From contig OY282385.1 of NCBI GenBank assembly GCA_958295935.1, forward strand, positions 1,798,001 to 1,862,000: a stretch of 64,000 bases of DNA, in the 5' to 3' direction. This document shows positions 54,980-58,796 of this stretch, in pieces. Source of the DNA: an uncultured Dehalococcoidia bacterium (GTDB lineage Bacteria; Chloroflexota; Dehalococcoidia; Lucifugimonadales; Lucifugimonadaceae). Each line of letters begins with the position of its first letter. The stretch's first letter is position 1. The position numbers were made by a program, and so were the translations under genes. The notes under the pieces were generated by a model. It was given only the letters and a program-made list of their open reading frames with translations. It was not told the DNA's origin and did not search any database.

Positions 54980-56323
54980 TCAAGAGTCCGGGGTCGCCAG
55001 GCCCTCCACCAGCGCATTGAATTCCTGGATGGATGACACACCCGCAACCGCATCTACGAACTCGCCTGCGCTGCTCGTAGTTTGCCTCAGTTCCCACAGC
55101 CTCGATGCGATGGGGCTGATCGACGAACCGCTCTCCCCGTAGCTGCCGGCAAAGGCAAAGTAGGCCTGGTTGATCTTACGAATGTAGATGCCGTGCGTTT
55201 GAAGCTCGACGCGGCGGTCGTCCATGTAACGCTCAGCCTCTACTATCATCCCGGCCGCAAGAAGTTCATCCGTCCTGATCCTCGTCTCGCGCATGAAGCC
55301 GAAGAAGTCGAACTGATCTTCCGGCGGTTCCGGTACGCTTTCGACGTCCCTGGGAGGGATGAGCGTTTCCACCTCCTCACCGGTGATAGCCGCATATACG
55401 AGGCGGCCCATCTCCCGGCCCGCCATGTCCGCGACCGTCTCGTTGAGGACCACCATGTCGGGGCTGCTCCAATAGTTGAACCCCAGCGGCTTGAACACCA
55501 GGTAGTTGTGGAGCCATTCGTGCACCGCCACTTCCAGCAGACCCAGCAGGTCGCGGTTGGGCTGGACGGTTGCCGGATAGGTACTCAGTCCGCCTGTACG
55601 CTGGACGATGGCCGACATGTCCTCAGAAACCAATATCTCCTGCTCGATCCGCTCCATCTCCGCAACCGGTATGTGTGGCTCGATGAGGTGGTTCTCATCA
55701 CGATAGATTCGGTCTCTTGGGGACACCACGAGGATGCTCGGCGGCGGGTCGAGTCGAAAATCGACCGGCGGCCATATGAACGCCCCCAGGACGTTTAGAT
55801 CTTGCTCGATCAACTGGGCGCTGATTGCAGATTCCAGGTACTCCTCTACACCGTCCCGAATGGCATTCCGTTCGCTTAGCAGATCGTCCAGCCGGGCCTC
55901 CAGCGACTCCACAATCGTTCGATCACCAGCAACCACAGAGATCGACCTGTCCAGCTCATCCCGCACCGCTCTTATTTCGACGACCATCTCACGATAGCGC
56001 GAAAGCTGGGCCTGGCGGTCGGCTTCCGAGGTTTCTGTCCACGGTAGCCAGGCGTAGGCCCTGTGCAACCACTTGTCGGCAAAGTTGCCGACTTCCCAGG
56101 AAATGAGGTCGAAACTCCACTCCGCGGCGTGTTGATGGGAGGGGGTCAGCATGAGCCTGTCGCCTGGGGGAAGTACGATAGCCAACGCAAACAGCAAAGC
56201 GAACAGGGAAAGGCCTACACACCGCTTGATCCGCAGCCTGAAGTGACTTGCGGTGCGCAAAGCGGCCGTAGCTCTGCCCAAGATGGGCGCGAGGCTGAAC
56301 CGCTCATGCCCCGGATGGCGCAT
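54980..56323 (-). CDS. Membrane-anchored putative zinc metallopeptidase (gluzincin-like), uncharacterised
   Basis: I do not recognise a named family. A single hydrophobic segment (CVGLSLFALLFALAIVLPP, about residues 35-53) near the N-terminus suggests a signal anchor with the rest outside the membrane. Residues 100-175 are charged and probably coiled coil. HEWLH (H268, E269, H272) is an HExxH zinc motif, and NETVAD, with E295 23 residues later, matches the third ligand of gluzincins. A helical C-terminal region follows. I start at the ATG at 56323 (GGAGG and AGG upstream); ATG at 56344 is possible. It is divergent, by 82 bp, from another HExxH protein. Confidence 0.7.
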   Translation of the reverse strand: MRHPGHERFSLAPILGRATAALRTASHFRLRIKRCVGLSLFALLFALAIVLPPGDRLMLTPSHQHAAEWSFDLISWEVGNFADKWLHRAYAWLPWTETSEADRQAQLSRYREMVVEIRAVRDELDRSISVVAGDRTIVESLEARLDDLLSERNAIRDGVEEYLESAISAQLIEQDLNVLGAFIWPPVDFRLDPPPSILVVSPRDRIYRDENHLIEPHIPVAEMERIEQEILVSEDMSAIVQRTGGLSTYPATVQPNRDLLGLLEVAVHEWLHNYLVFKPLGFNYWSSPDMVVLNETVADMAGREMGRLVYAAITGEEVETLIPPRDVESVPEPPEDQFDFFGFMRETRIRTDELLAAGMIVEAERYMDDRRVELQTHGIYIRKINQAYFAFAGSYGESGSSISPIASRLWELRQTTSSAGEFVDAVAGVSSIQEFNALVEGLATPDS

Positions 56324-56405
56324 GTAAACCTGAACCCTCCGCATCGGATAATTGGCCGAGCTCGACGGCGTGTTGACTATTCAACGTATACTCTCGCGGC
56401 CCACA

Positions 56406-58796
56406 ATGCGATTCCCATCACTCGTATATCTGGCGACGGCGCTTATGGCGCTGGCGCTTCCTGCGCTTATGGCAGCCTGCGACCGCAACACCGGCCCGCG
56501 GGCCCAGCCGCTTGTGACAACCGCGCCGCCTCCCGGGACTTCCGCGACCAGCCCGGGACTGCCTACGCCCACTGAATCTCCGACTGCCCAGCCTACCCCT
56601 ACATATCCACAGAAATCTCCGTCTGCGACCTCGCCTCCTCCTTCGCCCCATCCAACCAGGCCGCCAGTTTTACCAACCCCTGTACGGGAGCCAACACCCA
56701 CTCCAACCAGTCCGACGGCAACGCCTGTGGAATCGGTCACAGGTGAAGTCCCTCTTGAGGGCATATCGCGGAACGCTTGGGTCCTGGACAGGATAGAGGC
56801 CATCCGGCAGATATGGGGCTTTACGGACCAGGGCAGGCTATGGATGGAGTCGTATGACTTTCGCCAGATGCTTGGGCAGCCTGCATGGTACGGGAGCTAC
56901 GGCGCCGGCGGATGGGCAGGCGCAGGCGAGGCAAATCCTCGCATCGTCATGCACGAGCTCTCGCACTCATCTTGGAGCGCCTTTCCGGTGGAAGGCAGGC
57001 CCGACCTATCACAAGACGTTCCCGACAAGCTGCACCCGATACTCGCCCAACTGCACGCAGACATAGACCGCTTTCTGCGCCAGCCCCCCGACTCTTTCGA
57101 GCCCCTCAGAGACCGCTTTCGCAATATGCCTAACCTTGCTAGAGGAAGCTATCCTGACCTGCACCACTTCGGCGAGGCGGAGCTGATAAACATGACCGGA
57201 GGCAACCTGTGGCTCTTGCCGCCAATCCTCCGCAAATATTTCTCTGCCTACCTGGCCAATGAAGGCGTGGCGGCAGACCAAGTCCCGGACTGGGCTTCGG
57301 CGATTGGATGGTTCCGATCCCTCGCGGCCGACGACCGTCGCATAGCGGAAGAGGTGTTCGGCCTGCAGCACATTCCGGCCGAACTCTACGAAGGTCTACC
57401 CGCGCCCGGCGCCGCCACGTTGGACCGACACATCGTCAAGATATTCGAGTTGGAAGAGAAGCAGCGACTGCTGGATTTGGCAGAGCAGTTCGATCTCGTA
57501 AAAGCCAGCCAGTTTTCACTGGTAGACGCGGCCGGCGTGGACCGGGGCTTCTCCTTCTGGCGGAGCTACTTGGGGGACAAGAAACGCCTGCACCAGCGTC
57601 ATCCAGAAGTTCTAGGCGACCACTCGCAGGCCCCTGCGCGGCAGTTGGGGGATGCGCTTGATTTCTACCTGTCCATCGAAGGAAGTGGGCCGGAATCGCA
57701 GGCGGAAGCGGTGAGAGCTCGATCCGGCGAACCGATCATCCACGAGTTCGCAGTTCTCCTGAAACCCCGAGCTATAGGCGAACTGTACAGCGGCGGGGTA
57801 GGGACTGAGGGGTTGGAGAAAATTATAAGCACGCGGGCGGCGAAGCTCGCCGAGATGGCCCGACGCGTGAGTGAAATCATATCGGCCGGCCAAAAAAGCC
57901 CGTCCTCGGGCGTCGCTCTGCTGGAGATATGGCTTGCGGATCTATCGGACGATGACATTCGCGCCGATCTCAGTTTGGGGATGGAGCTCCTCCGGGAAAC
58001 AGACCCGAACGTGACCCAAAACATCTTCCCGCTGCTCTCAGACAACACTCTTCGCAGATTGCTTACGGTCAAGCCGGACATAGCCAGGGCCCATGAGATC
58101 AGCCCTGAGCGGTTACTCGCAGCAATTGGCATCGTACCCGGCGCATCAGCGGAACAGATCGCATCCGGCGCCAAACTTCTCGCCGACAACACCTCCGGGA
58201 ACTTCGCTATAGACCGGCCCTACAACCGCGCCGTGTACGATGCCATCGAGGTGTTGGGAGAGACGGAGCCTGCCAAGGCCATCGCCGCGCTGCGGCAATC
58301 GGGTATGAGGCTGCTGCCATGGATACAACGAGGCTCGAGAGGGGCGGTCGCTATGATGCGGTCGCAACCGCGCCTTACGGCCGACCTGCTCGCATCGGTA
58401 CCAGGTCCGCGAGAAACTCCGGAGGCCCTTCTCCACGCGCTGATCGGTTACGAACCCGAGTTGGCCGCTGCGCTGCTTATGGAAATGGAGCAGGCCGGTG
58501 TAGATAACATCGCCCAGCACACGCTGATGACCATAGCATTCGACTCTTACTGGACTGGCTTGGGAGGAGGGCCCGGCGTCGATCCGGCCAACGACGCCAG
58601 GTTCTTGGTGGAATTGGGCCGTCTGCGCAGCGCGGAGTGGCTGAAGCAGACTTTGAGCCTGGGGGTACGGCAGGTACGAGCAGAGATCGCAGCGGGTGAG
58701 ACCGATCCGCAATTCATCGACCAACTAACCCGTACACTAAGCCAAGCCCTCATCCCATCCCACAACACCCTTGCGGATCAACTCTTACCCCTCTAA
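56406..58796 (+). CDS. Putative HExxH metallopeptidase lipoprotein, uncharacterised
   Basis: 796 aa. The signal peptide ends in a lipobox with C25 (LMAAC). A Pro/Thr/Ser-rich linker of about 80 residues (PTPTESPTAQPTPTYP and similar) leads to a folded region. HELSH (H183, E184, H187) is an HExxH motif in the VMHELSHSSW context, and HHFGEAEL (H253/H254, E257) may give the third ligand. The remaining 500 residues are rich in helices with repeat-like Leu/Ala spacing and resemble helical-repeat domains, but I recognise no domain. No named family is obvious. ATG at 56406 is chosen because the signal peptide starts there. Confidence 0.65.
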   Translation: MRFPSLVYLATALMALALPALMAACDRNTGPRAQPLVTTAPPPGTSATSPGLPTPTESPTAQPTPTYPQKSPSATSPPPSPHPTRPPVLPTPVREPTPTPTSPTATPVESVTGEVPLEGISRNAWVLDRIEAIRQIWGFTDQGRLWMESYDFRQMLGQPAWYGSYGAGGWAGAGEANPRIVMHELSHSSWSAFPVEGRPDLSQDVPDKLHPILAQLHADIDRFLRQPPDSFEPLRDRFRNMPNLARGSYPDLHHFGEAELINMTGGNLWLLPPILRKYFSAYLANEGVAADQVPDWASAIGWFRSLAADDRRIAEEVFGLQHIPAELYEGLPAPGAATLDRHIVKIFELEEKQRLLDLAEQFDLVKASQFSLVDAAGVDRGFSFWRSYLGDKKRLHQRHPEVLGDHSQAPARQLGDALDFYLSIEGSGPESQAEAVRARSGEPIIHEFAVLLKPRAIGELYSGGVGTEGLEKIISTRAAKLAEMARRVSEIISAGQKSPSSGVALLEIWLADLSDDDIRADLSLGMELLRETDPNVTQNIFPLLSDNTLRRLLTVKPDIARAHEISPERLLAAIGIVPGASAEQIASGAKLLADNTSGNFAIDRPYNRAVYDAIEVLGETEPAKAIAALRQSGMRLLPWIQRGSRGAVAMMRSQPRLTADLLASVPGPRETPEALLHALIGYEPELAAALLMEMEQAGVDNIAQHTLMTIAFDSYWTGLGGGPGVDPANDARFLVELGRLRSAEWLKQTLSLGVRQVRAEIAAGETDPQFIDQLTRTLSQALIPSHNTLADQLLPL

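Follow-up and report, generated by a model that had tools for sequence, protein, structure and literature searches.

Membrane proteases can be gated by cages of SPFH proteins. In the FtsH-HflK-HflC complex, the caged enzyme is a membrane zinc protease; HflK and HflC have N-terminal transmembrane segments and large periplasmic SPFH domains, and they form a cage around FtsH (PMC12005517). In STOPP systems (PH1510/NfeD-type), the gene for a membrane-bound protease lies beside an SPFH gene, and PH1510 is reported to use acyl-enzyme intermediates, i.e. it is not a metallopeptidase (PMC3795559). The gluzincin peptidases of families M3, M4 and M1 carry an HExxH motif with a downstream glutamate on the following helix.

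Here we describe protein A, a candidate peptidase from a bacterium of the SAR202 group, whose members are abundant in the dark ocean. Like FtsH, A is a putative membrane zinc protease that is associated, in its case by gene neighborhood, with an HflKC SPFH cage, and the HflK and HflC proteins encoded here are true equivalogs. Unlike FtsH, A lacks an AAA+ domain (no AAA+ match was found for its 454 residues in Pfam and NCBIfam searches), has a gluzincin-type site, and has a catalytic domain that is predicted to be extracytoplasmic; the genome has a separate gene for FtsH. A resembles the STOPP proteases in that the gene for a membrane-bound protease stands beside an SPFH gene, but its motif is HExxH and it has no Pfam match. 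It shares the HExxH motif and the glutamate on the following helix with the gluzincins, which also supply its top-ranked structural rows, but it lacks a Pfam or PDB sequence match to them and has an additional transmembrane helix and a helical hairpin (residues 107-180) ahead of the catalytic domain.

The divergent genes and the predicted zinc site of protein A

The window (the whole stretch of 64,000 nucleotides that was analysed) belongs to a genome represented by a single 2.75-Mb contig. The relatives of this genome are SAR202-cluster Dehalococcoidia (Chloroflexota), among them Candidatus Lucifugimonas marina. The original prediction described two adjacent, divergent genes about 80 bp apart, each encoding an exported HExxH protein. 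The gene positions hold, but the ATG-to-ATG distance is 61 bp, given that the likeliest start of B is the ATG at 56406 (796 aa); an 814-aa open reading frame begins at a TTG at 56352. Export is borne out by a membrane helix in A and a lipobox cysteine, C25, in B, and the predicted long Pro/Thr/Ser linker and helical region of about 500 residues in B are both present (residues ~29-118 and ~296-796). The features are as follows.

54980..56344, minus strand: protein A, membrane-anchored candidate peptidase with an HExxH-x22-E (gluzincin-type) pattern, 454 aa; ATG at 56344, stop at 54980
56165..56221, minus strand: A, N-terminal transmembrane helix, residues 42-60, from hydropathy
55508..55522, minus strand: A, HEWLH, residues 275-279, holding two of the predicted zinc ligands along with the general-base glutamate; H, E, W and H invariant
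55427..55444, minus strand: A, NETVAD, residues 301-306, with E302 as predicted third zinc ligand; N301 and E302 invariant
56345..56405, no strand: divergent intergenic region between the A and B start codons, 61 bp, from sequence
56406..58796, plus strand: protein B, exported lipoprotein with an HExxH domain and a helical, solenoid-like half, 796 aa
56478..56480, plus strand: B, predicted lipidated Cys25 of the lipobox LMAAC, from sequence; C25 invariant in the alignment
56490..56759, plus strand: B, Pro/Thr/Ser-rich linker, residues ~29-118, from sequence
56952..56966, plus strand: B, HELSH, residues 183-187; H183, E184 and H187 invariant in close homologues
57156..57176, plus strand: B, DLHHFGE, residues 251-257, in which H254 and E257 are candidates for additional ligands; both invariant in close homologues
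57291..58793, plus strand: B, all-helical region, residues 296-796, from the model

Residues 42-60 of A form a single strong hydrophobic segment, preceded by ten Lys/Arg residues and one Asp/Glu residue. The predicted topology is N-in, C-out, with an extracytoplasmic catalytic domain. An N-terminal membrane helix is also present in 33 of 35 A homologues.

A single HExxH motif is weak evidence, since several percent of proteins of such length are expected to contain one by chance. However, HExxH is invariant in both A (35/35) and B (12/12 covering rows), indicating that the motifs are not chance occurrences. H275, E276, W277 and H279 are each invariant in all 35 aligned A homologues, N301 and E302 are invariant in every homologue of this 35-row alignment that covers that part, and the same residues (H275, E276, H279 and E302 included) are invariant in a 51-row alignment drawn from public contigs. 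E302 lies 23 residues past H279, and the HExxH-x22-E spacing is a gluzincin pattern. The gluzincin pattern first proposed for A from its HExxH motif and NExxxD glutamate is supported, with all three predicted ligands invariant.

The AlphaFold2 model of A has a mean pLDDT of 90.9 and a pTM of 0.86. It consists, in order, of the membrane helix, the long helical hairpin, a small strand-containing part and the motif helices, with HEWLH on helix 266-282 and E302 on helix 295-321. A Foldseek search of the PDB with this model found nothing significant (best E 0.33). With VIA-align 2, M3 and M4 peptidases occupy all of the top five rows, at Z scores of 8.0-8.3, values that fall within the range of common arrangements and alone are no proof; these rows include Pz peptidase A and oligoendopeptidase F (M3) and pseudolysin and vibriolysin (M4), and further M4, M1 and M3 rows follow lower down. 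The presence of gluzincins at the top of the VIA rows, together with the ligand pattern, makes it likely that A is a gluzincin-type peptidase.

Neither family had been recognised at the outset, and neither is recognised now: A and B are both without a Pfam, NCBIfam or PDB sequence match, with no peptidase family found in Pfam or NCBIfam at E values up to 1 and no usable match in PDB sequence searches for either protein. A match to KIF21A in these searches (E 0.0059, under its cut-off) falls on the helical hairpin.

Protein A is found in 180 of the 197 genomes of its order (92 of the 93 of good quality), in 33 of the 40 nearest relatives and in 77 of a phylum-wide set of 301 genomes. It is mostly single-copy, and none was found on plasmids. 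Genomes of family f6 carry a second copy, unlinked to hflKC, in addition to the hflKC-linked one (L286:6203-7606, plus strand). A represents a real and conserved family of putative peptidases, one that is as yet undescribed.

Association of A with hflK and hflC

Gene clustering around 116 nonredundant A loci revealed two SPFH genes directly downstream of A and on the same strand. These are hflK and hflC according to the NCBIfam equivalogs TIGR01933 and TIGR01932, which they match well over cut-off; in the window genome, HflK scores 245.7 bits against a cut-off of 159.4 bits and HflC scores 225.3 against 134.4 bits. Downstream sequence of 2.5 kb or more is available for 102 nonredundant A loci; in 40 of them the gene after A, in the same orientation, is hflK, and hflC comes next in nearly every case. 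By coordinate comparison, A and hflK are neighbors in no fewer than 48 genomes, which belong to seven families; the counts, all of them minima, are 27 in f1, 2 in f2, 7 in f6, 1 in f11, 2 in f101, 6 in f108 and 3 in f115. Three of the f1 cases come from the locus set and the rest from row-by-row coordinates. The recurrent neighbor of A is, unexpectedly, hflK-hflC and not B. The visible divergent partner is thus not the conserved one, which corrects a natural misreading of the locus. Conserved EF-G and ETF neighbors of A were put down to local synteny rather than to partnership.

The window genome itself departs from this arrangement. Its A gene is the ortholog of the gene that adjoins hflK-hflC in relatives, but, unlike in most f1 relatives, its hflK-hflC genes (L264:9817-12155, plus strand; G000 C1 ~1754816-1757154) are about 97 kb from A, outside the window; both have been kept, though separated. 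The gene for FtsH is elsewhere again (G000 C1 2070066). A and hflKC are also split in several genomes of genus g10 and in several other families. The contig region that carries hflK-hflC in the window genome also encodes a 725-aa exported protein (L264:3290-5467, plus strand) built from some five nearly identical units, each ~125 residues long and bearing a motif that resembles FSYYNSMESVDGDWYLFIIDE; the units look like tandem sensor-type domains.

We put the probability at roughly one half that A is a single-pass, extracytoplasmic, gluzincin-type zinc peptidase for which the HflKC cage is the working partner and B an optional accessory. The adjacency suggests that A may be a second protease partner for the HflKC scaffold. 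Phylum-wide counts led us to reject the idea that the two are obligate partners: HflK is found over cut-off in 18 of 301 genomes and A in 77, and A is missing from 9 of the 18 genomes with HflK. The same excess of A over HflK fits an alternative in which A would be a general secreted or membrane peptidase, serving envelope maintenance or peptide use, with its position beside hflKC being only frozen synteny. Several families of the order that have A without adjoining hflKC, and the unlinked second copy in family f6, also fit this explanation. However, the A-hflK-hflC order is constant in seven families while the flanking genes vary among them, a pattern not predicted by plain synteny. We regard this alternative as a serious possibility, at worse than even odds.

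Protein B and its pairing with A

No nearby glutamate of the gluzincin type, some 18-25 residues or slightly more past HExxH, is evident in B. Instead, the co-conserved candidates H254 and E257 fall 67 and 70 residues past H187, in a catalytic part that is modelled with low confidence. H183, E184, H187, H254 and E257 are invariant in all 12 B homologue rows that cover them, and the HExxH motif is retained in 14 of 16 members of the wider family. A wider set of SAR202 proteins (L236-L243, ~600-945 aa) has the HExxH and HxxE regions in common with B; they differ from B in carrying other N-terminal regions and in having no match to its long helical C-terminus. In two of them, L239 and L243 of family f7, HExxH is replaced by ADVMR and H254 by W. 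Their simultaneous loss points to H254 being part of the metal site and to the L239 and L243 copies being pseudo-enzymes. B is therefore best described as a putative HExxH metalloprotein with a distant further candidate ligand, whose membership in the gluzincins is not established.

The C-terminal helical part of B is modelled well. Its top structural rows are ARM/HEAT proteins, none of them significant (best VIA Z 7.2; Foldseek E at least 0.04), and a HEAT/ARM-like solenoid is suggested for this half of the protein. Foldseek found no significant match in the PDB for the B model, and no relatives of B were found on viral contigs. Outside f1, B is directly preceded, in the same orientation, by a small open reading frame of ~140-170 aa that belongs to one family (L223:5969-6421, L225:8320-8748, L232:8060-8578, L234:5591-6043 and L235:5446-5880).

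An order-wide search found full-length B in 23 of 197 genomes; weaker matches were left out, many of which cover only the linker or signal region, while others are distant relatives. B adjoins A in 11 of these 23 genomes, with the genes divergent in nine (all f1), tandem in one (G354, L121/L224) and convergent in one (G401, L123/L226), the latter two outside f1. In the other 12, B is unlinked to A; unlinked copies occur in G001, f10, f15, f101, f119 and one f99 genome. The f1 copies of B all fall in one clade of the B tree and the tandem and convergent cases fall outside it. From this topology, the divergent layout looks like a single event, with adjacency having been gained or rearranged more than once.

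These observations bear on the proposal of a two-part system, in which A and B would be exported peptidases controlled jointly from the 61 bp between them. Its components, two exported HExxH proteins, are indeed present. The divergent adjacency in nine f1 genomes, as well as in the f1 genomes G002, G013 and G023, the single clade of the f1 copies and the recurrence of A-B adjacency outside f1 in other arrangements would all agree with such a system. As a unit, however, the pair is not supported: with A in 180 of 197 genomes and full-length B in 23, A is unpaired in most relatives, which is the outcome that the original prediction had named as telling against it. In G445, moreover, B is reduced to an in-frame, 88-codon remnant, in which the start of the catalytic domain is fused to the C-terminal end, beside intact A and hflKC (L244:3624-3890, plus strand; the same record as L093), and in G010 the B gene has an internal TAG. 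A joint A-B system is thus unlikely. Since A is kept where B has been deleted and full-length B is scarce, B is, as far as gene content can tell, an accessory, and the A-B pairing is a minor lineage feature.

A possible partnership between A and HflKC

If the HflKC cage is the working partner of A, then A, hflK and hflC would be co-transcribed, although the gap between A and hflK, measured to the earliest start codon that could be used, has a median of 155 bp, which is not tight and does not prove a single transcript. A is predicted to have the same N-in, C-out topology as HflKC, and the simplest view places it with or inside the HflKC cage, which might enclose or gate it. There, A would trim or remove membrane-associated or exported proteins without ATP, in parallel with the separate FtsH of the genome. 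B, anchored by its lipid and probably on the same outer face, would act in some lineages as an optional accessory exported peptidase at the A locus, probably binding a substrate or a partner through its solenoid-like half. More tentatively, HflKC in bacteria of the SAR202 order may serve A as a second, ATP-independent gluzincin peptidase at the outer face, with FtsH working separately on the cytoplasmic side. In the literature searched, to which any claim of novelty is limited, we found no paper joining HflK with SAR202 and no description of an SPFH-gluzincin peptidase partnership of this kind.

The relationship could also run the other way, with A processing HflK or HflC rather than being regulated by them, by analogy with the action of the stomatin operon partner protease on stomatin. 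The archaeal membrane-bound 1510-N (PH1510) is described as a stomatin-specific protease (PMC3795559), and A has the same gene-neighbor relation and membrane anchoring. Against this analogy, A does not belong to the serine proteases, and HflKC is absent from many genomes that carry A; we consider such processing improbable. Least probable is a structural role for A in HflKC assembly, as a pseudo-peptidase: no activity is on record for A and Foldseek gave no significant match, but H275, E276, H279 and E302 are wholly invariant in aligned relatives.

The preferred reading, in which HflKC is the working partner of A, has consequences beyond this locus. A candidate zinc peptidase that is spread over the phylum and recurrently found beside hflKC would extend the SPFH-linked proteases by a new class, and the link between A and HflKC is directly testable in cultured SAR202 bacteria.
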